Positions 49,826-64,000 of a stretch of DNA of 64,000 nt are shown piece after piece. Location of the stretch: the NCBI RefSeq assembly GCF_003600155.1, contig NZ_QWLD01000003.1, forward strand, positions 310,001 through 374,000, given 5' to 3'. The position numbers and the translations under genes were made by a program. The stretch's first letter is position 1; each line of letters begins with the position of its first letter. The notes beneath the pieces are model-generated. The model made no database searches. It was given only the letters and a program-made list of their open reading frames with translations, and was not told where the DNA came from. The DNA is from Nesterenkonia muleiensis (GTDB lineage: Bacteria; Actinomycetota; Actinomycetes; Actinomycetales; Micrococcaceae).

Positions 49826-50233
49826 TCACTCCCCTGCCAGCTCGGCTTTCTCCTGATGCTTGATCCGGTTCCAGGCGGCGTCGATCTCCTCGATCGTTGA
49901 CTCCTGGGGGTTCAGGGTGCCATCGGGCTCGAAGACATGCGGGTTGCGGCGGATGAGCTTGGCGCAGATCGCCTCGGCGACGCCGTCGAGATCGAAGTCC
50001 TCACGTTCCTGCGCGATGGCGGCGTGCAGCACCACTTGGAGCAGAATGTCGCCGAGCTCCTTCCGCAGCGGATCCCCGGTGATCCCGGCCTCGATCTCCT
50101 CGGCGACCTCCTGGGCCTCCTCCAGCAGATAAGGGGTCAGCGTCCGATGGGTCAGCTGCGCGGTCCAGGGACAGTGCTGGCGCAGATCGGCGATGATCTG
50201 CTTCAGCTGCTCCATATGGGGGAGCTGGGTCAC
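49826..50233 (-). CDS. MazG family nucleotide pyrophosphohydrolase
   Basis: Protein of 135 residues holding one MazG domain: CPWTAQLTHRTL, then LLEEAQEVAEEI and ELGDILLQVVLH, which supply the Mg2+-binding EExxE and ExxD residues. Long MazG proteins carry two such domains; this is the single-domain actinobacterial form. It likely removes pyrophosphate from aberrant or excess NTPs. The GTG start overlaps the adenosine deaminase stop by 4 bp, so it appears to be the last gene of the long muropeptide operon. Confidence 0.9.
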   Translation of the reverse strand: MTQLPHMEQLKQIIADLRQHCPWTAQLTHRTLTPYLLEEAQEVAEEIEAGITGDPLRKELGDILLQVVLHAAIAQEREDFDLDGVAEAICAKLIRRNPHVFEPDGTLNPQESTIEEIDAAWNRIKHQEKAELAGE

Positions 50234-51369
50234 TGCCAGGCCTCCAGGATGTGGGCGGCAAGCGCCTCGCGCTCCTCATAGCCTAAGAAGCTGGACTCGA
50301 TCGCGTTGATCTGGAAGTCAGCGAGCTCGGCCAGGCCGTAGTCGAAGGCCGAGGCCAGCACGGCCAGCTCTCCGCTGAGGGTGACCCCGGAGACCAACCG
50401 GTTGTCGGTGTTAACGCCGACGTTGAAACCCAGCTGATAGAGCATGTCGAAGGGATGCTGGGCCAGCTCGGCGTCGGGCTCTCCGGTCAGTGCGCTCACC
50501 GCACCGGTCTGGAGGTTGGAGGTCGGAGAAGTTTCCAGGTGGATCTGCCGGTCGCGGACCCAGCGGGCCACCGGGCCCAGTTCGACCTCGACGAGCTCCT
50601 CCCCGCCGTCGCTGGTCTTTGAGCGGGAGGTCTCACCGGTGGTCAGGGTGATGTCTTCGGCGACCCGGATACCGTGCCCCAGGCGCTTGGCGCGGCCTTC
50701 GACCAAGGCTCCGCGCACCGACTCGATGCCGTCGGCCTCTCCGGCGTGCACTGTGGCCGGAAGCATTTCCTGGGCCAGGCGGGTGAAGGCTGGGGCGAAC
50801 TTCGAGGGAGGGAATCCTGCCTCGGGGCCGGCGATGTCGAAGCCCACCACCCCATTCTCCCGGTGCCGGATGGCCAGGTTGACGATCTCATCGGCATGGT
50901 CGGCCTGGCGCATGGCGGAGAGCAGCTGCCCGACGACCATGACGCCCTCGTGATCGGCCACCGTCTCGGCACCTTCATTGAGCCCGGCCTGAACCGCTTC
51001 CACCGCTTCGTCCAGGGTGAGTCCGCCGGCGATGTGCTGCTCGGGCGCCCAGCGGACCTCGGCGTAGACCACACCGTCGGCCGCCAGATCCTCCACGTAT
51101 TCACGGGCCACCCGGCGTAGGTTCTCAGAGGTCTGCATCACTGCGGTGGTGTGGGTGAAGGCCTCCAGGTATTTGAGCAGATCCCCGGAGTCCGCGTTGG
51201 TGCGGAAGATGTCCTGGAGCTCATCAGGGTCGGTGCTGGGCAGTTCATGGCCGATCACCGTGGCCAGCTCGATCAGCGTCGAGGGGCGCAGCGACCCGTC
51301 CAGGTGGTCGTGCAGGGATACTTTGGGCAGTGCTCGGATCTGGTCGTCTAACCCGGGATTCTCAGTCAT
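50230..51369 (-). CDS. add: Adenosine deaminase
   Basis: Protein of 379 residues. Zinc-site motifs are LHDHLDGS (His20, His22), ATVHAGEADG, and NTDN near the C-terminus; LGHGIRV carries the catalytic His. It hydrolyses adenosine or deoxyadenosine to inosine and ammonia. A polar loop TGETSRSKTSDGGEE (about residue 240) is an insertion relative to the common form. The start lies 10 bp after nagA, so it may be expressed with the wall-recycling operon, joining nucleoside and amino-sugar salvage. Confidence 0.93.
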   Translation of the reverse strand: MTENPGLDDQIRALPKVSLHDHLDGSLRPSTLIELATVIGHELPSTDPDELQDIFRTNADSGDLLKYLEAFTHTTAVMQTSENLRRVAREYVEDLAADGVVYAEVRWAPEQHIAGGLTLDEAVEAVQAGLNEGAETVADHEGVMVVGQLLSAMRQADHADEIVNLAIRHRENGVVGFDIAGPEAGFPPSKFAPAFTRLAQEMLPATVHAGEADGIESVRGALVEGRAKRLGHGIRVAEDITLTTGETSRSKTSDGGEELVEVELGPVARWVRDRQIHLETSPTSNLQTGAVSALTGEPDAELAQHPFDMLYQLGFNVGVNTDNRLVSGVTLSGELAVLASAFDYGLAELADFQINAIESSFLGYEEREALAAHILEAWQ

Positions 51370-51379
51370 GCCTTCCAGC

Positions 51380-52282
51380 CTAATGGTCGAAGCCGAGGAA
51401 GCGAGCCGGAACTGTGCTCGCCGCCGCCTTGGCCTGCTGTGCGGGCACACCGGCGGCGATGGCCGTCCCCACAGCCACGTCCATGGTCAGGGTGGAGCCG
51501 GCGAGAGTCCGCGCGTCGGCCAACAGCGGGATTCCATCGCGGACCTCCACGTCCAAACCGCCCAGCCGGTAGGTGCCATCGCCAAGTCCGGCGGCGGCCA
51601 TAGAGTCGGTCACCAGAATCACCCTGTCGGGTGCCGCTGCAAAGAGGGTCCTGATCAGCACCCGATGGACGTGAACGCCGTCGGCGATGACCTCGATGCC
51701 CACGTGATCCCGGTCCAGCGCGGCTCCCAGCGGCCCCGGAGCGCGGTGTTCCAGACCCGGCATAGCGTTGAGGGCGTGGGTGAGCAGCGACGCGCCCCTG
51801 TCAAATGCCTCGGCGGTGATGTCATAGTCGGCCGCAGTGTGGCCCACTGCCACCAGGACTCCGGCCTCGCTAAACCGGTCGATGGCCTCCATGGCGCCAG
51901 GCAGCTCGGGGGCCAAGGTCACCTGGCGCAGGATTCCCTCGCCGGCCTCCAGCAGCGTCTCCACCGCCGATGGGGAGGGTTCACGCAACGCTTGGGGGGC
52001 ATGCGCGCCGGCACGCGCCGGGGCTAGGAAGGGCCCCTCCACGTGGACGCCGTGGATGGCGACGCCGCTGATCACGTGGTGACCGGACAAGGTGCTCCGT
52101 AGTCTGCGCAGTCGAGCGGCAAGCTGCTCCGGCGGGGCGCTGACCAGGCTCAGCAGGGTGTCCGAGGTCCCGTGCTGATGGTGGAAGTCCAGGGCTGCGG
52201 CAACCTGTCCGTAGTCGGCAGAATCATAGGAGCAGCCGACCGCCCCGTGAGTATGTATGTCCGTGTACCCGCCGCCCGGCAC
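51380..52282 (-). CDS. nagA: N-acetylglucosamine-6-phosphate deacetylase, short form
   Basis: Protein of 300 residues of the NagA amidohydrolase family. It has DIHTHGAVG (metal-site region), HVEGPFLAPARAGAH, VGHTAADYD, THALNAMPGLEHR and VTDSMAAAG (catalytic Asp). The usual NagA has about 380-400 residues: the first 50-60, which build part of the beta-sandwich, are absent here. The frame runs upstream through the end of nagB with no start codon, so GTG at 52282, sharing one base with the nagB stop, is the first available. It deacetylates GlcNAc-6-P to GlcN-6-P. Activity of the short form is uncertain. Confidence 0.85.
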   Translation of the reverse strand: MPGGGYTDIHTHGAVGCSYDSADYGQVAAALDFHHQHGTSDTLLSLVSAPPEQLAARLRRLRSTLSGHHVISGVAIHGVHVEGPFLAPARAGAHAPQALREPSPSAVETLLEAGEGILRQVTLAPELPGAMEAIDRFSEAGVLVAVGHTAADYDITAEAFDRGASLLTHALNAMPGLEHRAPGPLGAALDRDHVGIEVIADGVHVHRVLIRTLFAAAPDRVILVTDSMAAAGLGDGTYRLGGLDVEVRDGIPLLADARTLAGSTLTMDVAVGTAIAAGVPAQQAKAAASTVPARFLGFDH

Positions 52283-53052
52283 TATAACCTCAGGGCGGAG
52301 TAATTGGCGGAGTGGACCAGCAGGGAGGCCGCACTGCGGTCAGCAACGACGACCACATCAGGATGCAGCTGGATTGCCGATGCCGGAACAGCGGCAGTAA
52401 TAGGACCCTCCAGTGCTGCTGCCAGTGCCTCAGCCTTCGCCGTGCCGTAGGCTATCAGCAGCAGCTGGCGAGCTTGCATGATGGTGCCGATCCCCTGGGT
52501 GATGCAGTAGCGGGGCACCTCCTCCTGAGATGAGAAGAAGCGGGAGTTGTCCTGGCGGGTCTGCTCTGCCAGTGCCGCCACTCGGCAACGCGAGGCCAAC
52601 GACGAGCCAGGTTCGTTGAAGGCGATATGTCCGTTACGGCCGATGCCCAGCACCTGCAGATCGATACCGCCGGCATCCCGAATAGCTTGCTCGTAGCGCT
52701 GCGGTGCCTGCAGATCTCTCCCATCATCCCCGGGGCAGCGCACCTTCTCAGGGTTCAGGCCCAACGGGAGGGTGATCTGCCTGCGGACTACTGCACGGTA
52801 GGATTCGGGGTGGTCGGCCTCGATGTCAAGGTACTCGTCGAGGGCGAAGGCCTGAATCCTGCCGGTGTCGACACTAGACTCCCCCAGGCGCCCTGCCAGG
52901 GCCCGCCAGGTGCTGCCGGGCGTGCTGCCTGTGGACACCCCTAGGACGAAATCCCCCTCCACGCGCTGGCACCGCACGGCTGCCTCCACAATTTCTTCAG
53001 CACCGATCTGACCGCCCTCGGCAAGGGTGTCAACCACATACAGGCTGGTCAT
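52282..53052 (-). CDS. nagB: Glucosamine-6-phosphate deaminase
   Basis: Protein of 256 residues. Family motifs: GVSTGSTPG for phosphate binding, FALDEYL (Asp72 base), GIGRNGHIAFNEPGS with the catalytic His, and IQLHPDVVVVAD. It converts GlcN-6-P to fructose-6-P and ammonia, the last step in delivering wall amino sugars to glycolysis. The ATG overlaps the ABC ATPase stop by 4 bp. Confidence 0.94.
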   Translation of the reverse strand: MTSLYVVDTLAEGGQIGAEEIVEAAVRCQRVEGDFVLGVSTGSTPGSTWRALAGRLGESSVDTGRIQAFALDEYLDIEADHPESYRAVVRRQITLPLGLNPEKVRCPGDDGRDLQAPQRYEQAIRDAGGIDLQVLGIGRNGHIAFNEPGSSLASRCRVAALAEQTRQDNSRFFSSQEEVPRYCITQGIGTIMQARQLLLIAYGTAKAEALAAALEGPITAAVPASAIQLHPDVVVVADRSAASLLVHSANYSALRL

Positions 53053-54686
53053 GCAGCGTCCTCCAATGCGGCACCGGGAATCGCAGCGAGCAACTCCTTG
53101 GTGTAGTCCGATTCGGGGGAGGCGAAGAGCTGCTGCGGAGCACCTGATTCCACAATCTTCCCCTTCTGCATCACATGAACCTCATGGGCGATCATATTCA
53201 CCACCGCGAGATCGTGACTGATGAACAGGTAGCTGAGGCCCAACCGCTGCTGAAGTTCCACAAGCAGCTCAAGGATCTGATTCTGCACCAGCACATCGAG
53301 GGCGGAGACGGCTTCGTCGAGGACCACGAGCTCGGGCTCCAGGGCAAGCGCCCGTGCGATGGCAACACGCTGCCGCTGTCCGCCTGAGAGCTCATGCGGA
53401 AGACGCTGCGCCACTGTGGCCGGCAGTGCTACCTGCTCAAGCAACTGATGGACCTTCTGCAATCGGCTGCGGCGAATACCGACCTTGTGGACGCGCAGCG
53501 GCTCTGCCACTGACTCCGCGACGGTGTAGCGCGGGTCAAGCGAGGCATAGGGGTTCTGGAAAACGGGCTGAATCTGCCGACGTACCGCCATCATCTCCCG
53601 TCCGCGCAGGCCGGCAAGCTCCCTGCCCGCGATGCGGATGGTTCCCTCGCTGATTGTCTCCAGGCCCAGGAGCATTTTTGCAGTGGTGGATTTGCCGGAA
53701 CCGGATTCGCCGACGATGGCGACTGTACGGCCCTTCGGGATACCGAAGCTGATGTCCCGGGCGGCCCAGAACTGCTCACCTGCGGCCCTGCCGCGCAGCG
53801 TGTACTTCCGTCCCACCCCGATCACCTCGACCAGCGGAGCTGCAGCATCGGTCTGTGTCGCGCCTGGTCCGCCAACGGAGCCGACCAGGGGTTCTGTGAC
53901 AAAGCTTGGGGCAGCGGCGACGAGCTTGCGTGTGTAACTGTGCTGAGGACTCTTCAAGATCTTTCGGGCGGGGCCGGATTCGACGAGTTCTCCCTTGTAC
54001 ATCACCAGCACTCTGTCGGCCCGCTCGGCGGCGAGGGCGAGATCGTGGGTAATGAGCACCACAGCGGTGTTCGTCTGCCCGGTGAGCTCCTCAAGCGTAT
54101 CGAGAATTCTCCGCTGGACGGTGACGTCGAGGGCGCTGGTGGGCTCATCGGCGATGAGCAGACGCGGCTGGCAAGCCAGACTCATGGCGATGAGGGCGCG
54201 CTGGCGCATTCCACCGGAATATTCATGCGGGTACTGGTCATAGCGCTCCTGCGGCGAGGGTATGCCCACCATGTGCAGCAGTTCCAGCACCCGGCTCCGG
54301 CCCTGGGCGCCGCGTCCCCGGCCATGGACCTCCAGCGCCTCGAGAATTTGGCGCCCCACCGTGTGCACCGGGTTGAGGTTGGACATCGGATCCTGGGGAA
54401 CCAGGCCGATCCCGGCACCGCGCAGGCGCAGCATCTCACGCTCAGAGGCGGAACTCAGCTCACGGCCCTCGAAGCGGATGCTGCCGCGGCTGATCCGGCC
54501 GTTGTCGGCGAGCAGTCGGTTGATGCACGCCGCCAGAGTCGACTTGCCCGAGCCTGACTCCCCGACGATGGCCACGGTTTCGCCGGGCATCACGTCGAGG
54601 CTGATGCCCCGAACGGCGTCGAACTCTCCGCCAGGGGTGGAGAAGGTGACCTTGAGGTCGGCGATGGAGAGGACTGGGTCGGTCAT
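53049..54686 (-). CDS. Fused dipeptide/oligopeptide ABC ATPase (DppD-DppF type)
   Basis: Protein of 545 residues with two complete ABC domains. The first (about 1-255) has GESGSGKSTLA, QDPMSNLNP, YSGGMRQRALIA and LLIADEPTSALD. The second (about 285-540) has GESGSGKSTTA, NPYASLDPR, LSGGQRQRVAIA and VVLDEAVSALD (Ala replaces the usual Pro-Thr of DEPTS). It powers the permease pair encoded upstream in the same operon. Overlaps nagB and the serine hydrolase gene by ATGA. Confidence 0.93.
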   Translation of the reverse strand: MTDPVLSIADLKVTFSTPGGEFDAVRGISLDVMPGETVAIVGESGSGKSTLAACINRLLADNGRISRGSIRFEGRELSSASEREMLRLRGAGIGLVPQDPMSNLNPVHTVGRQILEALEVHGRGRGAQGRSRVLELLHMVGIPSPQERYDQYPHEYSGGMRQRALIAMSLACQPRLLIADEPTSALDVTVQRRILDTLEELTGQTNTAVVLITHDLALAAERADRVLVMYKGELVESGPARKILKSPQHSYTRKLVAAAPSFVTEPLVGSVGGPGATQTDAAAPLVEVIGVGRKYTLRGRAAGEQFWAARDISFGIPKGRTVAIVGESGSGKSTTAKMLLGLETISEGTIRIAGRELAGLRGREMMAVRRQIQPVFQNPYASLDPRYTVAESVAEPLRVHKVGIRRSRLQKVHQLLEQVALPATVAQRLPHELSGGQRQRVAIARALALEPELVVLDEAVSALDVLVQNQILELLVELQQRLGLSYLFISHDLAVVNMIAHEVHVMQKGKIVESGAPQQLFASPESDYTKELLAAIPGAALEDAA

Positions 54687-55819
54687 ATCGGATCACCTGT
54701 TCGGCTCGGATGGAAACTGGCGTGGACACCCGCCATAGCGGTACGCCACATGGTGTCCACAGGCATCAGGTGGGCGCGGCCTGGCACCGGACTTCCGTGC
54801 AGCCGGTTGGTCAGCAACACGCTGAGCACTTGCGCATACTCGCCGACAGCGGGAGCAGCCGCGATGAAGGTACCGGTGAAGCCCGGGTGCCCGAGGAACA
54901 CCCGCTGCTGACCTCGCCACTGCATCCGATAGGTGCGTACCCCTTGGCCCTGACCCTGGTCGTGGGCGACCTGGTCTTTCTCTGTACTGAGAGATGCAGA
55001 GGTTTCAGCGCGAATCCCGGCCTTCTGCGGGTTCGCCAGCACCTCGGCGATCCTCAGCAGACCAGCGGCATCGGCGAACCAGCCAGCGTGGCCTGCCGCT
55101 GTGCCGAAGGCGTGGAAGGCGTTGCAGTCGCCGATCTCACCGCGGATCAGGTGCCGCCGCCAGGGGAATCGCTCAGCAGCGGTTTGAGTCCCGGCGTCGA
55201 CGGGATGCGGAGTGCTTGTGGTGACCATGTCACGCTCAATGGCGTCCCCGTATTGCCCGGAGGTGACCGGTGCCCCGGGCGGAGGGCTGCCGGGGGTCAC
55301 AGTCTCGACTCCCAGGGGCTCGAGCAGCAGTTCGATGACGGCCTCGGCAAAGCCAAGGCCCGTGATACGGGAGATGACGGCTCCGACAGCCTGCATGCCC
55401 AGATCGGAATAGTGCCGCCCGCGGCCCCGGGGGTATCGCGGATCCAGCGAGAGCGCCGCAGCGACAGGATCTTCATGGGGCATCAGATACAGCGGCCACC
55501 ACTCCCGGAACCCCGCACGGTGCCGCAGCAGATCATCCAGGGTCGCCTCCCCGTGCGTCCCGGCCTCGGGAAGGAACCTGCTCAGGGGGTCTCCCGGAGC
55601 CGCCGCGCCATCGCTGAAGAGACGCTGCAGGGTAAGGGTAGTGAGCACCTTGCTCACCGAGGCGAGGTCATGAAAATGCGCTTCGGTCATCGGTTCAGCG
55701 GTCTCGATATCGGCCAGACCCGTGACCGAGACAAACCTCTGATCACCCTCGATGACCACCAGCACCGCTCCGGGCGGCTGATGCTGCCCTGTGTTCTGCT
55801 CGGTGACGCCAGGTGTCAT
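54683..55819 (-). CDS. Serine hydrolase, beta-lactamase/AmiE-like, cytosolic
   Basis: Protein of 378 residues of the PF00144-type beta-lactamase fold. The nucleophile motif is SVSK (Ser54-Lys57), the second motif YSDLG (in place of YxN), and HPGFTGTF near the C-terminus. There is no signal peptide, so it should act in the cytoplasm; this argues against a resistance role. In Bacillus subtilis the murQ operon contains a comparable gene (ybbE/amiE) reported as a MurNAc-L-alanine amidase. Cleavage of the peptide from imported MurNAc-peptides is thus the best inference. Overlaps both neighbours by 4 bp. Confidence 0.82.
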   Translation of the reverse strand: MTPGVTEQNTGQHQPPGAVLVVIEGDQRFVSVTGLADIETAEPMTEAHFHDLASVSKVLTTLTLQRLFSDGAAAPGDPLSRFLPEAGTHGEATLDDLLRHRAGFREWWPLYLMPHEDPVAAALSLDPRYPRGRGRHYSDLGMQAVGAVISRITGLGFAEAVIELLLEPLGVETVTPGSPPPGAPVTSGQYGDAIERDMVTTSTPHPVDAGTQTAAERFPWRRHLIRGEIGDCNAFHAFGTAAGHAGWFADAAGLLRIAEVLANPQKAGIRAETSASLSTEKDQVAHDQGQGQGVRTYRMQWRGQQRVFLGHPGFTGTFIAAAPAVGEYAQVLSVLLTNRLHGSPVPGRAHLMPVDTMWRTAMAGVHASFHPSRTGDPI

Positions 55820-57534
55820 GGCAGGCTCCTCACCAGTCGAATCTGCGGTTCTCCGTAACGCGGATCCACGCTGCGCTGACCATCGGGAATCCATCCTTGA
55901 CGCTCGTAGAAACGTCGGGAGGGGGTGTTGCTCTCAAAAACCCAGAGGGAGATCTCATCCGCTCCGCTGCTGCGCAGTGCATCGGTCGCCTCCTGCAGCA
56001 GTTTACGTCCGTATCCACCGCCCTGGGCTGCGGGATCCACGTAGAGCGAGCGGACGTGGCCGTTGCCCCTGTCCTGGGTGCCATAGCGCACCACACCGAC
56101 CACCGCCCCGTCATGCTCTGCCACCAGGGTCTCGGTGGTGGTGTCCGCGAGTCCCACGCTCCATAGTTCGCGGGCCTGGTTCGGGTCCATGCGCTCTACC
56201 AGGTGCCTGGGCAGTACCGCCTGATAGCTGGTGTGCCAGCAGCTGAGGAAGACCTCGACGGCGGCGTCGAGGTCGGTGAGATCAGCCGCCCGTACCGTGA
56301 CTGTGGCGAGGTCTGGGTGGACGCTGGCTACCCGTGCCGCCGACGGGGGGCTCGGTAGAGGTTCAGGGATCCGGAGGGGGCCGCCGCCGGGCGTGATGCT
56401 ACCCAGGATGCGCGGGGATCGTGCTCCTGTGGCCGTTGTCGCAGCGCCCGCCAGACCGTGCAGGGAGAGCCACCCGATGAGTGCCATGAGCACCGCCTCC
56501 TTCTCGTCGGGGCCGATGCCCAGAGCGTCGATGCTCCGGACCGAGGTATCAGGCAGGCCCCGGATCAGGCCGTCCATCATCACCTGGTTGTGCACTCCCC
56601 CGCCGGAGACGAAGAGCTCGTCGGCCCCCTCGGCACTGAGGGCATCGACCACGGTGCGCACGGTCAGCTCAGTGAGGGTGGCTACCAAATCGGCATCGCT
56701 GAGCGGGTCGCCGCCTTCATCGGCGTGCCGCTGCAACGCCTGATTCACATAGCCGATGTGGAATAGCTCTTTGCCGGTGCTCTTCGGAGCGGGCTGCCGG
56801 TAGTACTTCTCTTCGAGCATCAGCTCCAACAAGGGCTGACAGACCCGGCCGGTGGCGGCGATGGCGCCGGCGTCGTCGTATCCGGCCGGATGCAGGTCCC
56901 GGTCAGCGACGACTGCGTCGATGAGCGCATTGGCGGGCCCGATATCCCAGGCGCGCACGGGCTGCTTCCCTACCACGGTGACATTGGATATCCCGCCGAG
57001 GTTCAGTGCCGCTGCAGTCCCAGGACGCCCGGCCAGCAGCAGTGCGTCCAGAGTTGAGGCAAGCGGGGCTCCCTGGCCGCCGGCAGCGATATCGCGGATA
57101 CGCACATCGGAGAGCACCGGGGCCCCTGTTCGCTCGGCGATCCACGCCGGCTGACCGATCTGCAGGGTCCCCAGCACCTGGGTCGAATTCGGGGATTCGG
57201 CGACCCAGTGGTAGACCGTTTGGCCGTGGGAGACGATCAGGTCCACCGATTCGGCGCTCACCCAGGCTGACTCCAGGGCATCTGCGGAAGCTTGGGCGAA
57301 CGCCTGGCCGATCTGGGTGTCCAGCTCCGCCACTGTCGCCAGGCTCGTGGGCTCCGGGGGAAGTGCTTTGAGCAGCTTCGCTCTCAGCTGCGGCAAGTAC
57401 GGTGTCGCGCTGCGACTGATGATGTCGATGTCCAGCACCTCTGATCCGCAGGTGAAGTCGACGACGGCACCGTCGATCCCGTCATGCGAGGTTCCGGAGA
57501 TCAGCCCGAGGATTCTCATCTTCGAGGAGCTCAT
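55816..57534 (-). CDS. anmK: AnmK-GNAT fusion: anhydro-MurNAc kinase + acetyltransferase
   Basis: Protein of 572 residues. Residues about 7-385 are AnmK: LGLISGTSHDGIDGAV (ATP loop), SHGQTVYHW, LNLGGISNVT, GPANALIDAV and VSGGGVHNQVMM. This enzyme hydrolyses and phosphorylates 1,6-anhydro-MurNAc to MurNAc-6-P. After a proline-rich linker, residues about 405-572 are a GNAT acetyltransferase with VRSLYVDPAAQGGGYGRKLL as acetyl-CoA loop and FYERQGW. The fused GNAT has no known role; it might act on an amino sugar or amino acid. Overlaps murQ by ATGA. Confidence 0.92.
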   Translation of the reverse strand: MSSSKMRILGLISGTSHDGIDGAVVDFTCGSEVLDIDIISRSATPYLPQLRAKLLKALPPEPTSLATVAELDTQIGQAFAQASADALESAWVSAESVDLIVSHGQTVYHWVAESPNSTQVLGTLQIGQPAWIAERTGAPVLSDVRIRDIAAGGQGAPLASTLDALLLAGRPGTAAALNLGGISNVTVVGKQPVRAWDIGPANALIDAVVADRDLHPAGYDDAGAIAATGRVCQPLLELMLEEKYYRQPAPKSTGKELFHIGYVNQALQRHADEGGDPLSDADLVATLTELTVRTVVDALSAEGADELFVSGGGVHNQVMMDGLIRGLPDTSVRSIDALGIGPDEKEAVLMALIGWLSLHGLAGAATTATGARSPRILGSITPGGGPLRIPEPLPSPPSAARVASVHPDLATVTVRAADLTDLDAAVEVFLSCWHTSYQAVLPRHLVERMDPNQARELWSVGLADTTTETLVAEHDGAVVGVVRYGTQDRGNGHVRSLYVDPAAQGGGYGRKLLQEATDALRSSGADEISLWVFESNTPSRRFYERQGWIPDGQRSVDPRYGEPQIRLVRSLP

Positions 57535-58451
57535 GGGGCCGACTCCAGACTCTGAAGTGCTTCCCGGAGCCGCCCGTCAGCGTTGCCGAGCACCGTAGTT
57601 GCCTGATCCGAGTTCATGCCGCTGTGGAGCATGATGACCGCCGTCGGTACGGAGTAGCCGCACTGCTGCAGCGCCGCGCTGGCGTGTTCGACGGGGCTGC
57701 CGGTGATCTTCTGAACAATCCGCGCCGCCCGGTTTCTGAGCTTCTCATTGGAGGCGTGCACATCGACCATAAGGTTCCCATAGGTCTTCCCCAGCCGGAT
57801 CATCGAGATGGTGGAGAACATATTGAGCACCAGCTTCTGGGCGGTGCCGGCCTTCAGCCGGGTGGAACCGCTGATGATTTCCGGGCCCACAATCACCTCA
57901 ATGGGGTGTTCGGCTACCGCTGACAGTGGAGTCTCTGCGTTACAGGAAAGCCCGATGCCCAGGGCTCCGACCTCGCGGGCTCGGCCGACCGCACCCACCA
58001 CGAATGGCGTACGTCCGCTGGCGGCTATGCCGATGACAGCATCCAGCGGCCCGACGCCGGCCTCATCGATGGCTGCCGCACCGGCAGCGTCGTCGTCCTC
58101 AGCGCCTTCGGAAGCGTGGAGGATCGCCCTGGGGCCTCCGGCGATGATGCCGATCACTCGATCCGAGGCGGAGAAGGTCGGTGGGATCTCCGAGGCGTCA
58201 AGGACTCCTATCCGCCCCGGGGTGCCGGCACCGACGTAGATCAGCCGGCCGCCGAGTGCCATGCGTTCGCTGACCGCTTCGATGGTGGGCACGATCTGGT
58301 CCATGGCGGCACGGACGGCCAGCGGCACGCTCTGGTCGGCCTCGTTCATCAGGTGCGCCAGCTGAGCAACGCTGAGTGTGTCGATCTGCTGGTACCTGGG
58401 GTCCGATGCTTCGGTGGTCAGAACCTCCAGATCCATAGAGTCAGTCGCCAT
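57531..58451 (-). CDS. murQ: N-acetylmuramic acid 6-phosphate etherase
   Basis: Protein of 306 residues of the SIS family. IYVGAGTPGRIGVLDASE (with Glu88) and ASEGAEDD (Glu115) match the catalytic segments of MurQ, although the phosphate-loop GAGTS is GAGTP here. AASGRTPFVVGAV and NAETPLSAVAEHPIEV follow. It removes D-lactate from MurNAc-6-P to give GlcNAc-6-P. The ATG at 58451 lies 2 bp after the DppC stop; longer upstream frames overlap dppC and are ignored. Confidence 0.94.
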   Translation of the reverse strand: MATDSMDLEVLTTEASDPRYQQIDTLSVAQLAHLMNEADQSVPLAVRAAMDQIVPTIEAVSERMALGGRLIYVGAGTPGRIGVLDASEIPPTFSASDRVIGIIAGGPRAILHASEGAEDDDAAGAAAIDEAGVGPLDAVIGIAASGRTPFVVGAVGRAREVGALGIGLSCNAETPLSAVAEHPIEVIVGPEIISGSTRLKAGTAQKLVLNMFSTISMIRLGKTYGNLMVDVHASNEKLRNRAARIVQKITGSPVEHASAALQQCGYSVPTAVIMLHSGMNSDQATTVLGNADGRLREALQSLESAP

Positions 58452-58453
58452 TC

Positions 58454-59356
58454 CTACCGTCCCTTCCGATTCGGATCGAGGGCGTCGCGCAGCCCGTCTC
58501 CCAGCAGATTGAGCCCCACGATGAGCAGGATAAGCGCAGCTCCAGGTGCCCACAGCGTCCAGGGCGCAGCCACCACGAGGGTCTGCGCATCGTAGACCAT
58601 TGACCCCAGCGACGCAGCCGGCGGCGGGGTCCCGAAGCCCAAGAAGCTCAACGAGGCTTCGGCCAGCACCGCCCAGGACAGGGTCAGGGTGACCTGGACG
58701 ATGAGGATCCCGGTGATGTTCGGCAGGATGTGCCGGAGCATGATGCTTCCGGCGCGCATGCCGGTGGCCCGGGCCGCGCTGATGTAGTCCATCTCACGCA
58801 GTGTGAGCACCGGGCCACGTGCGGTGCGGACGAAGATCGGGGTGAAGCCCGCTGCGATGGCGACCGCCACGGTGAACCAGTTGCGGTCGAAGACCGAGGC
58901 GATGGTCAGCGCCAGCAGCAGCGAGGGAAAGGCGAAGAGCACATTGGTCACCGCACCGACGGCGGCGTCAGTGGAGCCCCGCAGGTAACCGGAGACCGTC
59001 CCCGCTACGGTTCCGAGGGTGCCGGAGATCAGCGTAGCCACGATGGCGACTAGCACGGAGTTTCCGATGCCGGAGGCAACCCGGGAGAACACGTCTCGGC
59101 CAAACTGGTCAGTCCCCATCCAGTGGGTGCCCGAGGGCGCCTGCAGACGGGATGCGGCGTCCTGCTCGGCTGGGCCATAGGGCAGCAGCCCTGCGGCGGC
59201 GACCAGCGAGATGACGGCGAATACCACCACGATGGCCAGTCCGATGAGCCCGCTCGGACTGGCCATCAGCGCGAAGAAGGTTCTGCGGCCGACTCGGCCG
59301 GTCGGCACCTGGGCCGCGGCGAGTTCTGTACTGAGTGTGTCAGCTGGTGTGGTCAA
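58454..59356 (-). CDS. Dipeptide/oligopeptide ABC permease (DppC type)
   Basis: Protein of 300 residues with six membrane segments. MGTDQFGRDVFSRVASG follows the first, and the inner-membrane coupling EAA loop appears as ISAARATGMRAGSIMLRHILPN. The TTG start at 59356 overlaps the DppB stop by 4 bp (TTGA), the only plausible choice since the next ATG would delete the first segment. Pairs with DppB to form the import channel. Confidence 0.92.
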   Translation of the reverse strand: MTTPADTLSTELAAAQVPTGRVGRRTFFALMASPSGLIGLAIVVVFAVISLVAAAGLLPYGPAEQDAASRLQAPSGTHWMGTDQFGRDVFSRVASGIGNSVLVAIVATLISGTLGTVAGTVSGYLRGSTDAAVGAVTNVLFAFPSLLLALTIASVFDRNWFTVAVAIAAGFTPIFVRTARGPVLTLREMDYISAARATGMRAGSIMLRHILPNITGILIVQVTLTLSWAVLAEASLSFLGFGTPPPAASLGSMVYDAQTLVVAAPWTLWAPGAALILLIVGLNLLGDGLRDALDPNRKGR

Positions 59357-60372
59357 TCGGCACGCACCCTCGGGTCGATCTTTCGGTAGAGCAGGTCAGT
59401 GAGCAGGTTGACGATGACGAACAGCAGCGCGATGACCAGCACAGTGCTCTGCACCACGGCGTACTCCTGCTGGTTCATGCCCAGCAGGACTTGGCGCCCC
59501 AGGCCGGGCAGCGAGAAGATCTGCTCCATCACTACCGCCCCGCCCAGCAGGAAACCGAACTGCATGCCGGTCATGGTGACCACCGGCACCAGGGCGTTGC
59601 GCAGGATGTGGCTCCAGCGGAGCCGGCGAGGGGGCACCCCCTTAGCCTTGGCAGTGCGGATGAAGTCGAGGCTGCGCACCTCGAGCACCGCGGTCCGCGT
59701 GGTGCGCATCACCGGGGCCGCCACGGCGAAGCCCAGCACCAGCGAGGGCATCATCATCTGCTGCAGGTTCAGCCACAGGTTCTCCCACGGGCTGGCGTAC
59801 CCTAAGCCGTTGGGGTTGAATCCCCACACCTGCGCAGCTAAGCCCAACAGGAAGGTCGCCAGCAGGAAGTTCGGCACCCCGAGTCCGGCCAGGCCGATTC
59901 CCTGGCCCAGCCAGTCCCGGGCGGCATTGGGCCGCGAAGCCGAGAGCATCCCCAAGGGTATGCCGATCAGCAACGCCACCAGGATAGAGAGCACGGCAAG
60001 CTGCAGGGTCACCGGCAGGGACAGCAGGGTCATCTCCAGCACGCTCTGGTTGGTGCGCGAGGAGTAGCCGAGGTTGCCGGTGACCACATTGCCCAACCAG
60101 GTGAAGAACTGGACGATGAGCGGTTGGTCGAGCCCATAGTAGGCACGCAGGGTCTCCCGCTGCTCCTCGGTGAGCCCCGCCGCTTCGATTCCGTAGGCAG
60201 CGGTGATCTGGTCTCCAGGCAGTGCCCGGAGCATCACGAAGACGGTGATGGCGACGCCGAAGAGGGTCCCGAGAGCGCCCACCAGGCGACGCACCGTCGG
60301 TGAGCTGCGCAGCGAGTGCAGTACAGCCCCCTTTTTCTGCGGCATGCGGTGGTTCTTGGTCACGTGAGCCAT
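59353..60372 (-). CDS. Dipeptide/oligopeptide ABC permease (DppB type)
   Basis: Protein of 339 residues. An N-terminal segment GTLFGVAITVFVMLRALPGD precedes the soluble part RAYYGLDQPLIVQFFTWLG and five more segments; the EAA loop is FIRTAKAKGVPPRRLRWSHI. This is the DppB/OppB half of a peptide importer. It lies 12 bp after the binding-protein gene. In this operon the expected cargo is muropeptide rather than plain dipeptide. Confidence 0.93.
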   Translation of the reverse strand: MAHVTKNHRMPQKKGAVLHSLRSSPTVRRLVGALGTLFGVAITVFVMLRALPGDQITAAYGIEAAGLTEEQRETLRAYYGLDQPLIVQFFTWLGNVVTGNLGYSSRTNQSVLEMTLLSLPVTLQLAVLSILVALLIGIPLGMLSASRPNAARDWLGQGIGLAGLGVPNFLLATFLLGLAAQVWGFNPNGLGYASPWENLWLNLQQMMMPSLVLGFAVAAPVMRTTRTAVLEVRSLDFIRTAKAKGVPPRRLRWSHILRNALVPVVTMTGMQFGFLLGGAVVMEQIFSLPGLGRQVLLGMNQQEYAVVQSTVLVIALLFVIVNLLTDLLYRKIDPRVRAD

Positions 60373-60384
60373 CAGGTCCGTTGG

Positions 60385-61989
60385 TCAGTGGTCCACCAGC
60401 ACAGCTTCACGCAGGCCCTGCATGGAGCTGTTGGCCATGGCGGTGTATCCGCTGACGCCCTCGGTCAGAGCGGTGTACTCGTAGCCGGCGAAAAGCCAGA
60501 TCCAGACCGCCTGCTCCTCGAGGTAGTCGGAGATCTCCTCGTAGATCTCCGCACGGGCCTCTTCGTCGGTCTCCGCCAGGCCCTGCTCGAAGAGCTCGTC
60601 GAGGGCGTCAGAGCGATAGCCGGCGACCTCGTTGAAGTTGCCGTCGGAGCGGAAGTAGCGGCCGTAGGTGACATCCGGATCGGGGTTGCCGGCGTTGCGG
60701 GCCACCGCGAGCGTGAAATCAGCGTCCACCCAGCGGTCCACGTAGGAGCCGGACTCCAGAACTTCGAGGCTGAGATCGATGCCGACCTGAGCGAGCTGAG
60801 CCTGGATGGTCTCGCCTTCGGCCACCGCGGTGGAGTACCCGTCGGACATGACGATGGCGCTAAGCTCCAGGCCGTCCTCGTAGCCGGCCTCGGCGAGATA
60901 CTCCTCGGCACGGTCGAGGTCGGGTTCCGGACAGGGCCGGGAGCCGGGGTCACTGAGATGGGCCGGGGATGTGAAGGGGCCCACGACTTCCCCGGCGCCC
61001 ATGGCCGCGGAGTCCAGCACCTCCTGACGGTCGATGGTGCATGCCAGAGCACGTCGCACATTGACGTCGTCCAGCGGCTCCTCATCGGCGCGCAGCTGCA
61101 GTACGTGATAGGTCAGCTGCGGCGTTTCGAGGATCTCGACGCCGGCACCGATGGTGTCGGCGACCAACGGGTCATCGAAAGTGGCCATGTGCACGCTGCC
61201 GGCCTGCAGGGCGGAGACGATCGCCGACTCGTCGGGGATCACCCGGAATTCGACGGTGTCCAGCTGCGGACCCTCGCCCCAGTAGTCGGGATTGGCCTCC
61301 AGAGTCAGCGAATCGTTGGCGACCCGCTCGCTCAGGCTGAAGGGGCCTGTGCCGTTGGGTTCTGTCTCCAGCTCCTCGAGATCGGCATCAGCCGGGAGAA
61401 TCGCGGCGTTGCCCAGTGCCACCTTGGAGAACAGTGCAGTGTCCGGGGTGCTCAGGTTCATCGTGACGGTGTGGTCATCGGTGGCCTCTATGGACTCGAC
61501 GCTGGCCAGGTTGGTGGCGGCAGCCGCAGCGGTGTCGGGATCCTGGATGGCTTCGAAGGAGGCCACCACATCCTCGGCGGTGAGCTCGGTGCCGTCGAAG
61601 AAGGTGACGCCCTCGCGCAGGTGGAAAGTGGCGGTCAGGCCGTCGTCACTGATCTCCCAATCCTCGGCCAGGCCGGGCACCACCTCGAGATCGTGATCCA
61701 GCTCGGTGAGCGTGCCGTAGATATTGCGTAGCACATTGGTGGCCTGGAACTGGGTGGCGGTCCAGGGCAACAGGTTATCGACATCAGTGGTGAGGGCTAC
61801 CACCAGATCCTGGTCTTCCGCGACGGCAGCCTCCGGGACCTCATCCCCAGACTCGGCTGGCTCGCTCGAACCGCCGCAGGAGGCCAGGGCCAGCGCTGCG
61901 ACGGAAAAGACCGCGCAGGCTCTCAGAGCCGCTCCCCTCGGCGAGCGCAGTCGTGACCCTGGGCGAGGGGTATGGGGTGTGCTGGTCAT
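60385..61989 (-). CDS. Family 5 solute-binding lipoprotein for peptide/muropeptide uptake
   Basis: Protein of 534 residues. The signal peptide ends in the lipobox ALASC (Cys38), then an acidic linker and an SBP_bac_5 domain: LTEDLELV-like entry region, GLAEDWEISDDGLTATFHLR, FFDGTELTAEDV, NDSLTLEANPDYWG and NVRRALACTIDR. It is anchored on the outer membrane face and delivers ligand to the permeases. AGGAGG lies 7 bp before the ATG. First gene of the operon; its promoter region holds palindromes shared with the divergent regulator gene. Confidence 0.93.
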   Translation of the reverse strand: MTSTPHTPRPGSRLRSPRGAALRACAVFSVAALALASCGGSSEPAESGDEVPEAAVAEDQDLVVALTTDVDNLLPWTATQFQATNVLRNIYGTLTELDHDLEVVPGLAEDWEISDDGLTATFHLREGVTFFDGTELTAEDVVASFEAIQDPDTAAAAATNLASVESIEATDDHTVTMNLSTPDTALFSKVALGNAAILPADADLEELETEPNGTGPFSLSERVANDSLTLEANPDYWGEGPQLDTVEFRVIPDESAIVSALQAGSVHMATFDDPLVADTIGAGVEILETPQLTYHVLQLRADEEPLDDVNVRRALACTIDRQEVLDSAAMGAGEVVGPFTSPAHLSDPGSRPCPEPDLDRAEEYLAEAGYEDGLELSAIVMSDGYSTAVAEGETIQAQLAQVGIDLSLEVLESGSYVDRWVDADFTLAVARNAGNPDPDVTYGRYFRSDGNFNEVAGYRSDALDELFEQGLAETDEEARAEIYEEISDYLEEQAVWIWLFAGYEYTALTEGVSGYTAMANSSMQGLREAVLVDH

Positions 61990-62047
61990 GTCGATTCCTC
62001 CTGGTGCGGGCGGTGAATGGCGAGAGCACTTATGGTGATGTTAATTA

Positions 62048-62075
62048 TTTACCTTCAATATTGCAAGTAGGTAAA
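62048..62075. promoter_or_regulatory. Nested palindromes in the divergent promoter, putative RpiR operator
   Basis: Perfect 7-bp arms TTTACCT and AGGTAAA enclose 14 bp that themselves contain CAATATTG. The block is strikingly AT-rich compared with its surroundings. On the minus strand TTGCAA and TAACAT, 17 bp apart, could be the promoter of the transporter operon, overlapping the palindrome. Confidence 0.7.
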
Positions 62076-62158
62076 AAATTTCTTACGTCGATGTTTCGCC
62101 GTCTGGGCGGGCACTTATCGTCTCCGACGGCCCAGCTTCGACCGCTAAGGTAGCCGTC

Positions 62159-63058
62159 ATGGAAATAAATTCCGCACCTACGCCTCAGCCCCGCACCGAC
62201 GTCACACTGGTGCTGCGCGGGATGATGGACAGCCTGAGGCCTGCTGAGCGGCGTATTGCCGAGAGCCTGCTCTCGGACCCAGAGAGCTTCTCCCGTTCCT
62301 CCATCAAGGAGGTTGCCTCCCGTGCCGGGACCTCCACCACCACAGTGGTGCGCTTCTACAAACGCATCGGGTTCACACGGTTCAAGGACCTCTTGCATGA
62401 CGTGGCCGAGCAGGCGGCACGGGAACGGATGGCATCCAGCGAGTTCCCCGCACAGGCCAGCGACATCGACCGTCACGACAGTCTGGGTCAGGTAGTGGCG
62501 AAGGTGGCCCGCGATGAGACCCTCTCCATCAGTGACACTGCCAAGGTCCTCGATCTTGACGAACTCTCACAAGCGGTCCAGCTGCTGGCCCAGGCGGACC
62601 GCATCCACATCTTCGGCATCGGCAGCAGCGCGGTGATCGGTGAGGACCTCCAGCGCAAGATCAGCCGCATCGGGCGCACCGCCATCGACTGGACTGAGGC
62701 GCACACCGCATGGACCGCAGCAGCGGTGGCAGGGCCGCTGGCAACTGCGGTGGCGATCTCCCACTCAGGTCGCACCTCCGACACAGTGGAGTTCCTTCGG
62801 CTGGCCCGAGCCTCCGGGGCCGCAACCGTCGCCATCACCAATGCGCCGGATTCTCCGCTGGCAGCAGTGGCCGATGCCGTACTGCGCACCGCCGCCCGTG
62901 AGACGGAGTTCCGCTCCGGGGCACTAGGGAGCCGAATCGCCCAGCTCATGGTGATCGACTGCCTGTTCATCGGACTGGTGCAGACCGACTATGACGCCTC
63001 GGTCGACGCCCTGCGCGCCACCTACCAAGCAGTCCGGACCCGCGCCGCCCGCTCCTGA
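62159..63058 (+). CDS. MurR/RpiR family transcriptional regulator
   Basis: Protein of 299 residues. An N-terminal HTH_6 domain (about 15-90) contains SLRPAERRIAESLL and EVASRAGTSTTTVVRFYKRIG. A SIS domain (about 130-275) has IHIFGIGSSAVIGEDL and AISHSGRTSDTVEF for sugar-phosphate binding. Divergent from the muropeptide operon, it most likely represses it and is released by MurNAc-6-P or GlcNAc-6-P, as for MurR of E. coli; this ligand is inferred. Followed after 13 bp by the dipeptidase gene. Confidence 0.92.
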   Translation: MEINSAPTPQPRTDVTLVLRGMMDSLRPAERRIAESLLSDPESFSRSSIKEVASRAGTSTTTVVRFYKRIGFTRFKDLLHDVAEQAARERMASSEFPAQASDIDRHDSLGQVVAKVARDETLSISDTAKVLDLDELSQAVQLLAQADRIHIFGIGSSAVIGEDLQRKISRIGRTAIDWTEAHTAWTAAAVAGPLATAVAISHSGRTSDTVEFLRLARASGAATVAITNAPDSPLAAVADAVLRTAARETEFRSGALGSRIAQLMVIDCLFIGLVQTDYDASVDALRATYQAVRTRAARS

Positions 63059-63071
63059 GTAAGCTTGATTC

Positions 63072-64000
63072 ATGACGAATGCTGTTCACGTGGCCGCAGA
63101 GGTTCTCGCCCATGCCCCAGTGCTCGACGGACACAATGATCTTCCCTGGGCGCTGCGGGAGAACTGGAACTATGACATCGCCCAGGCACGGCTTGACACC
63201 GGGAATTCTGCACTGCACACAGATATTCCGGCCCTGCGCGCCGGCGGGGTTGGTGCCCAATTCTGGTCTGTATACGTCTCCTCCTCGCTGGAGAAATCTG
63301 CCGCCGTGGCAGCCACCCTGGAACAGATCGACTGTGTGCACCGGCTCATTGCGGCGTTCCCCGAGGACCTGCAGTTGGCGACCAGCGCAGCTGATGTCGA
63401 TACGGCGTTGAGAACCGGGCGCATCGCCTCTCTGCTGGGCGCCGAGGGCGGGCACAGCATCGCCGAATCACTCGCAGTGCTGCGGATGCTGCGGCGCCTG
63501 GGGGTGACTTACATGACTCTGACCCATAATGACAACACTTCCTGGGCGGCCTCCGCGACCGGAGAGCCGACCGAAGGCGGACTGACCGACTTCGGGCGCG
63601 AGGTGGTCACAGAGATGAATCGTATAGGCATGCTCGTGGACCTCTCCCACGTTCATGAGCAAACCATGCAGGATGCTCTGGACACCTCCACAGTGCCAGT
63701 GATCTTCTCCCACTCATCCTGCCGCGGCGTGCACGAGCACCCGCGCAATGTACCCGATACGGTTCTTGAGCGCCTGTCGGCCAACGGAGGGATACAGATG
63801 CTCACGTTTGTGCCGAGGTTCCTCAGCTCCGAGCCTCAGACGGCGGGGATCGACGACGTCGTGGCCCATATCGAACATGCTCGTGAGGTGGCCGGAGTGA
63901 ACCATATCGGTCTGGGCGGGGACTTCGACGGCATCCCTGAAGGGCCGGCCGGACTCCGACGAGTCAGTGACTACCCCGCGATGCTCACCGCCCTGGCCGA
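63072..64000 (+). CDS. M19 family membrane dipeptidase-like peptidase (3' end outside window)
   Basis: The 309 codons present match renal-dipeptidase-like M19 enzymes: [11 protein letters not shown] (HxD zinc ligands, about residues 20-30), [14 protein letters not shown] (bridging Glu), [22 protein letters not shown] and [10 protein letters not shown]. No signal peptide is apparent, so it should be cytosolic. The M19 family cleaves dipeptides, including those with D-residues. Beside the muropeptide operon it could split dipeptides freed from wall peptides. The frame is open to the window edge. Confidence 0.9.

Follow-up and report, generated by a model that had tools for sequence, protein, structure and literature searches.

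What does a peptide-type ATP-binding cassette (ABC) transporter carry when its genes stand among those for salvaging cell-wall sugars? The question is raised by a gene cluster in a 64,000-nucleotide stretch of Nesterenkonia muleiensis DNA (assembly GCF_003600155.1, contig NZ_QWLD01000003.1, positions 310,001 to 374,000), here called the window. The cluster encodes a binding lipoprotein of the SBP_bac_5 family of substrate-binding proteins (SBPs), permeases and ATPases, a PF00144 serine hydrolase, and AnmK, MurQ, NagA and NagB, a gene content from which a role in peptidoglycan-sugar salvage is close to certain. We consider it probable that the transporter imports (anhydro-)N-acetylmuramic acid (MurNAc) with its peptide still attached, to be dismantled in the cytosol, the cargo and the amidase specificity being read from context. 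The cluster was confirmed, and it extends beyond what the window by itself suggested: related clusters are present in further actinobacteria and on megaplasmids of Rhizobium.

To determine how far the genes travel together, we searched 394 genomes of the class with a profile built from three SBPs (A1). At E ≤ 1e-90 it found 28 places, 19 of them at E ≤ 2.1e-144 (window included) and nine at 3.7e-101 to 4.2e-91, and neighbourhoods of 12–20 kb were examined around all 18 strong places outside the window and all nine weak ones. AnmK and an RpiR-family regulator lie near every strong place (18/18 each), MurQ near 17 and a PF00144 hydrolase near 16, and neither MurQ nor AnmK was found near any of the nine weak homologues. 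The association of SBP, MurQ, AnmK and PF00144 genes described preliminarily for the window thus recurs, wholly or in large part, in 18 other genomes of the class. Adding the window, a second Nesterenkonia genome (L021) and a locus from another class found via MurQ (L085) gives 21 clusters, which contain AnmK and RpiR in 21 cases each, MurQ in 20, the hydrolase in 19, a GNAT domain in 12, an epimerase-like gene in 8, NagB in 3, NagA and an M19 dipeptidase in 2 each, a BadF kinase in one and a sodium symporter in none. Because the core set is found again in 20 other loci, the co-linearity is not due to chance, and it is this clade-wide linkage that joins a Dpp/Opp-family importer to the salvage path, as first proposed. 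The cluster is nevertheless sporadic, since the SBP was detected at E ≤ 1e-115 in just 2 of 396 genomes of the phylum, one being the window's own. In one locus (L129, genome G620) SBP and AnmK are each broken across two reading frames, reflecting assembly error or decay, and in two others a nitrilase-family (CN_hydrolase) gene follows the ATPase (L119:9358-10089, L177:17865-18593).

The transporter has the parts of a Dpp/Opp/Nik importer, namely an SBP_bac_5 protein, two BPD_transp_1 permeases and DppD/DppF-like ATPases. Eleven models of named SBP equivalogs (DppA, OppA, GsiB, NikA and others) matched the binding protein, the best at 188.5 bits against a cut-off of 393. In a maximum-likelihood tree of 54 SBPs, with a midpoint root for drawing only, 28 linked SBPs fall into one group of 29 (support 99/96). 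The sole row of the group labelled unlinked, L096, has a flagged long branch, and its neighbours on one side are out of view because the match lies 391 bases from the contig end. Judged by its place in this tree, the binding protein is a member of a distinct SBP clade. Escherichia coli DppA, OppA and MppA, together with the nine weak paralogues, lie outside the group, which argues against the transporter carrying free murein peptides or ordinary oligopeptides while another carrier takes up the sugar and the genes are merely co-regulated for salvage of wall debris. That explanation would suit the Dpp/Opp-family origin of the transporter parts and the presence of epimerase-like and M19 families, which act on free dipeptides, but the cassette genes include no other carrier, and a cytosolic PF00144 hydrolase, encoded in 19 of the 21 clusters, would be superfluous for an importer of free peptides; we regard this explanation as rather unlikely. 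In L024 and L026 the SBP next to MurQ is quite different from the clade SBP and is a second, independent Opp-type recruitment; in both, the unrelated Opp-type ABC transporter stands beside MurQ and a PF00144 gene (L024:4201-14616, L026:2483-12737).

The cargo was approached by comparing 70 MurQ loci, with PF00144 called at a threshold of 50 bits. Eleven encode a sodium symporter, ten of them from this genus and one from another family (L031, L027, L028, L030, L032-L034, L036, L037, L039, L040), and these have a BadF kinase and AnmK in 11/11 cases and the PF00144 hydrolase in 0/11. Conversely, PF00144 was matched in 5/5 Opp-type loci versus 14/65 others (Fisher p ~0.001, uncorrected for relatedness), the values for L024 and L026, outside the SBP clade, being 55 and 52 bits and thus barely above threshold. 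If the two kinds of locus handle different cargo, one would expect a peptide-type pump to come with an amidase-like hydrolase and an epimerase, and a sugar-type pump to be paired with a sugar kinase, as is observed. As the hydrolase accompanies the ABC-type loci and is absent from symporter-type loci with the BadF kinase, we favour peptide-bearing anhydro-MurNAc as cargo. In 8 of the 11 symporter loci there is also a gene for a large FAD/Fe-S oxidase that may act on D-lactate.

The same comparison bears on whether the SBP might instead carry free (anhydro)MurNAc or a disaccharide, with the hydrolase serving elsewhere, for example as an esterase or in beta-lactam hydrolysis. AnmK and MurQ do have sugar substrates, and solved SBP_bac_5 members include binders of nickel, heme, opine, sialic acid and chitin oligosaccharide, showing how diverse the ligands of the family are. 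However, the clusters of the same genus that pair a symporter with the BadF kinase do without the hydrolase, and we give the free-sugar explanation a low probability. Two observations slightly lower the odds for the import of a peptide-bearing sugar. An AlphaFold model of the binding protein (mean predicted local distance difference test score 85.7) has the SBP_bac_5 family fold and resembles relatives of many ligand types, indicating no ligand class, and the BadF kinase, found in 0/5 Opp-type versus 26/65 other MurQ loci, gives no significant difference (p 0.15).

The hydrolase itself is a PF00144 protein with the SxxK, YxN/D and HxG motifs of PBP4B/AmiE-like enzymes. Alignment of 15 of the 19 hydrolases from the clusters, that of the window among them, shows SxxK, YSD and HxG to be invariant, and the family profile matches E. 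coli YfeW (PBP4B) at 181 bits. The protein had been described as signal-less, and indeed no signal peptide is visible. In a crude scan, none of 26 ABC-type hydrolases had a lipobox or an N-terminal 12-residue stretch above 1.82 mean hydropathy, a cut drawn after the values had been seen, whereas 2 of 16 hydrolases at other MurQ loci had signal-like features (1.93 with a lipobox, and 2.11). A cytosolic location is therefore likely, although such features are not diagnostic of it. The PF00144 fold and the RpiR regulator would also be in keeping with a cassette for wall-damage sensing or antibiotic defence, in which muropeptides are a signal and not food. The cluster, however, encodes a catabolic route to fructose-6-P, and the 25 NCBIfam matches listed for the hydrolase (of 32), beta-lactamase models included, all fall far short of their cut-offs, so that we attach hardly any credence to a defence function. 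At L115:14614-16098, between AnmK and the ATPase, no PF00144 gene was detected; the interval has a weak MFS-like match of 33.3 bits (cut-off 33.4).

The proposed path from anhydro-MurNAc through AnmK, MurQ, NagA and NagB was upheld, MurQ and AnmK scoring above their NCBIfam cut-offs and NagB and NagA slightly below. Alignment to the E. coli MG1655 proteins gave identities of 45% for MurQ, 41% for AnmK, 37% for NagB and 31% for NagA. MurQ keeps glutamate at the positions equivalent to E. coli E83 and E114, which we take to be the key catalytic glutamates. In NagA the counterparts of E. coli E131, H195, H216 and D273 are conserved and HxH replaces the E. coli QxN, and NagB has asparagine at the position of E. 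coli Asp141. Its 300 aa leave NagA without counterparts of the N-terminal 49 residues and the C-terminal portion of the E. coli enzyme; the gene is not a broken one, since that of L021 encodes a protein just as short (301 aa). AnmK and GNAT form a single 572-aa protein with the GNAT domain at residues 446-548 (PF00583). The fusion is present in both Nesterenkonia copies, whereas L112 and apparently L113 have GNAT joined to the hydrolase, and L116, L117 and six loci of a family designated f113 have it free-standing. As a guess, GNAT may re-acetylate N-deacetylated muramic acid or, equally a guess, acetylate D-Glu before a DgcA-like racemase.

Taken together, import of a peptide-bearing sugar would proceed as follows. 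Wall fragments would be trimmed outside the cell to (1,6-anhydro)MurNAc-peptides, with a NagZ-like lipoprotein of glycoside hydrolase family 3 (GH3), encoded elsewhere, probably taking off N-acetylglucosamine (GlcNAc). The dedicated SBP_bac_5 lipoprotein would bind these compounds and the DppBC/DF-like ABC transporter would import them, peptide still attached, whereupon the cytosolic PF00144 hydrolase would cleave the lactyl-L-Ala amide bond. AnmK would then open and phosphorylate the anhydro sugar to MurNAc-6-P, MurQ would take off D-lactate to leave GlcNAc-6-P, and NagA and NagB would convert this to fructose-6-P. L-Ala-D-Glu would be processed by the M19 dipeptidase or, in some other genera, by the L-Ala-D/L-Glu epimerase-like enzyme, and MurNAc-6-P is probably the signal to which the divergent RpiR protein responds. 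We infer the order of steps, the role of GNAT and the regulation. For the epimerase-like protein of L124, the best solved relative is the Bacillus subtilis L-Ala-D/L-Glu epimerase (1jpm, 178 bits, DxD aligned), with an NCBIfam score of 175 versus a cut-off of 500; that of L116 scores higher with the model of the N-acetyl-D-Glu racemase DgcA (173) than with the epimerase model (160), all below cut-off.

For the extracellular step, the initial observation that NagZ is missing holds for the cluster genes, but the genome has a NagZ-like candidate elsewhere. One GH3 gene was found in the window's genome at E ≤ 1e-15; it lies on another contig and encodes a lipoprotein with KHFPGHGSVTDDSHD, which we take to be the NagZ-type motif. 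The genome therefore fits a monosaccharide-peptide cargo made outside the cell. The same search gave no GH3 match in six f113 genomes, so the same route cannot be assumed for them.

The arrangement of the genes is given in Table 1. The run of eleven minus-strand genes from the SBP_bac_5 lipoprotein to MazG, with its close junctions, was confirmed by open reading frames, Pfam and NCBIfam, as were the positions of the RpiR regulator and the M19 peptidase divergent from it. Along the minus strand there are gaps of 12, 2 and 10 bp, 4-bp overlaps (ATGA/TTGA/GTGA) and, between NagB and NagA, a 1-bp overlap (TAGTG). From overlaps and domain starts, the likely start of MurQ is 58451 (58553 is the earliest possible) and that of the hydrolase 55819. 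The M19 gene ends 79 bp past the window edge.

Table 1. Genes and promoter region of the cluster, in window positions
Feature	Position	Strand	Evidence and remarks
MazG	49826..50233	-	adjacent, judged outside module
Adenosine deaminase	50230..51369	-	adjacent, judged outside module; 51369 likely start
Short NagA, GlcNAc-6-P deacetylase	51380..52282	-	TIGR00221 212.4 bits, below cut-off 225.65
NagB, glucosamine-6-P deaminase	52282..53052	-	TIGR00502 225.6 bits, slightly below cut-off 236.9
Fused DppD-DppF-like double ATPase	53049..54686	-	PF00005, two stretches
PF00144 serine hydrolase, putative cytosolic (anhydro)MurNAc-L-Ala amidase	54683..55819	-	PF00144 142 bits
AnmK fused to C-terminal GNAT domain	55816..57534	-	NF007146 498.5 bits (cut-off 440); PF00583 78 bits
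MurQ, MurNAc-6-P etherase	57531..58451	-	TIGR00274 352 bits, cut-off 302
ABC permease C	58454..59356	-	PF00528 88 bits; TTG start, TTGA overlap
ABC permease B	59353..60372	-	PF00528 127 bits, PF19300
SBP_bac_5 lipoprotein, putative muropeptide-binding protein	60385..61989	-	PF00496 298 bits; signal and lipobox LASC
Divergent promoter region SBP/RpiR	61990..62158		palindrome TTTACCT-N14-AGGTAAA at 62048-62075
RpiR/MurR-family regulator, divergent	62159..63058	+	PF01418, PF01380
M19 dipeptidase, no visible signal peptide	63072..64079 (window ends 64000)	+	PF01244 344 bits

Adenosine deaminase and MazG, counted as part of the operon in the preliminary description, do not belong to the module. In 9/9 relatives examined the pair occurs without the cassette, none of whose genes lies within the ~1.5 kb visible on each side, and enolase is in view beside the pair in 7/9; in one of the nine (G029) the cassette sits on a different contig from the pair. 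L021 keeps the remaining genes in identical order, with neither adenosine deaminase nor MazG among them. From the gene order in L021 and the occurrence of the pair elsewhere in relatives, we delimit the module to the SBP, two permeases, MurQ, AnmK-GNAT, hydrolase, ATPase, NagB and NagA, plus RpiR and M19. The link of the M19 dipeptidase to the cassette is corroborated by L021, where its homologue follows NagA on the same strand. The best NCBIfam matches of the regulator are in the RpiR/MurR family, none above cut-off, and the palindrome in the divergent promoter region, a possible operator, was not found in 13 other intergenic regions compared.

Relatives were also sought beyond the class sample. 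A separate scan of genome contigs gave 21 loci, among them L091, a contig under the name Nesterenkonia ebinurensis that carries a copy of the cluster, L095, a 3 kb contig of a Nitriliruptoraceae metagenome-assembled genome in which MurQ precedes an SBP of 48% identity, and L098, from a metagenome-assembled genome of Chloroflexota, with MurQ and AnmK near a weak SBP; the other 18 had neither MurQ nor AnmK. In its 16-kb stretch, L098 combines MurQ, AnmK and a BadF kinase with two binding proteins of ABC type, one SBP_bac_1/8 and one SBP_bac_5. A tblastn search of a plasmid collection with the SBP returned 79 records at E ≤ 1e-45, and of ten chosen from the 45 listed, eight have MurQ and/or AnmK near the SBP. 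These are Nonomuraea gerenzanensis (labelled plasmid, 11.85 Mb), Embleya sp. NBC_00888, Rhizobium rhizoryzae, Rhizobium sp. SSA_523, R. tropici CIAT 899, R. jaguaris, Chelatococcus sp. CO-6 (MurQ, no AnmK match) and Mariluticola halotolerans (AnmK, serine hydrolase and a DgcA-annotated racemase, no MurQ match); in Deinococcus sp. KNUC1210 and Agrobacterium pusense neither gene is near the SBP. A BadF kinase and a MurA-like gene (EPSP synthase family) are present in the four Rhizobium loci and in Chelatococcus (L178, L180, L181, L185, L183), with a Pfam check for R. tropici alone. Against actinobacterial queries the Rhizobium loci score low (hydrolase 33-44 bits, AnmK 87-116 bits); the R. tropici hydrolase was confirmed by Pfam. 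In R. tropici (L181) an SLT lytic transglycosylase gene follows AnmK.

Of 121 f113 genomes, 14 contain the SBP. The six f113 genomes in the class sample measure 1.3-2.2 Mb, two of the loci having a GC content of 0.505 and 0.445, and 16S rRNA and rhodopsin genes were each found in 2/6. The 16S of G542 contains an exact match to what we take to be the AcI-852 probe site. That of G797 (L164), 74% identical to the 16S of G542 from the same genus and located on a short contig, is probably foreign contamination. PMC5213779 gives the AcI lineage as the target of AcI-852, and we tentatively assign f113 to the freshwater acI actinobacteria. More speculatively, and with somewhat more doubt than confidence, the linked SBPs may form a dedicated muropeptide-receptor clade of SBP_bac_5 that is passed, along with the genes for cytosolic processing, between Actinomycetota and megaplasmids of Rhizobiales, and that lets its bearers, small-genome acI-like lineages included, feed on the wall debris of other bacteria.

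Full-text literature searches found no published description of this cluster. Muramic-acid import in actinobacteria is treated there as an open matter: for mycobacteria, a 2026 preprint speaks of an "unknown transporter" (PMC13041923), and the S. coelicolor work reports a missing MurP orthologue (PMC5061867). PMC11406972 mentions an AnmK gene only. The cluster offers a testable candidate carrier beside its enzymes; the predicted function of its cytosolic enzyme with beta-lactamase fold would resemble that of AmpD, and GNAT emerges as a recurrent, unexplained partner.

Among known systems, E. coli murR-murQ-murP-yfeW together with AnmK shares with the cluster a divergent RpiR-family regulator, MurQ, a related PF00144 protein and the AnmK chemistry. 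It differs in having, by annotation, the phosphotransferase system (PTS) importer MurP and a YfeW with a signal-like start, where the present cluster has an ABC importer and a hydrolase without a signal; no PTS gene is among the cluster genes, MurP not having been searched for in the rest of the genome. Unlike the E. coli murQ operon, this cluster unites AnmK, NagA and NagB. B. subtilis murQRP-amiE-nagZ is alike by function, with MurQ, RpiR/MurR, a MurNAc-L-Ala amidase and NagZ, AmiE being likened by function and not by sequence; according to PMC5061867, however, amidase and NagZ there degrade muropeptides extracellularly and a putative PTS imports MurNAc. The symporter-type MurQ-AnmK-BadF clusters of other Nesterenkonia (e.g. 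L031) share MurQ and AnmK, often with NagA/NagB, but use an SSF carrier, a BadF-type kinase and a GntR regulator (L031), with neither PF00144 hydrolase nor Opp-type transporter. Agrobacterium YejBEF-YepA (PMC9790009) is a precedent for muropeptide import by a peptide-type ABC importer; YepA is encoded away from its permease genes, whereas here the SBP gene lies beside them, and the sequences were compared via E. coli YejA alone, which scores 41.5 bits with the SBP A3 profile.

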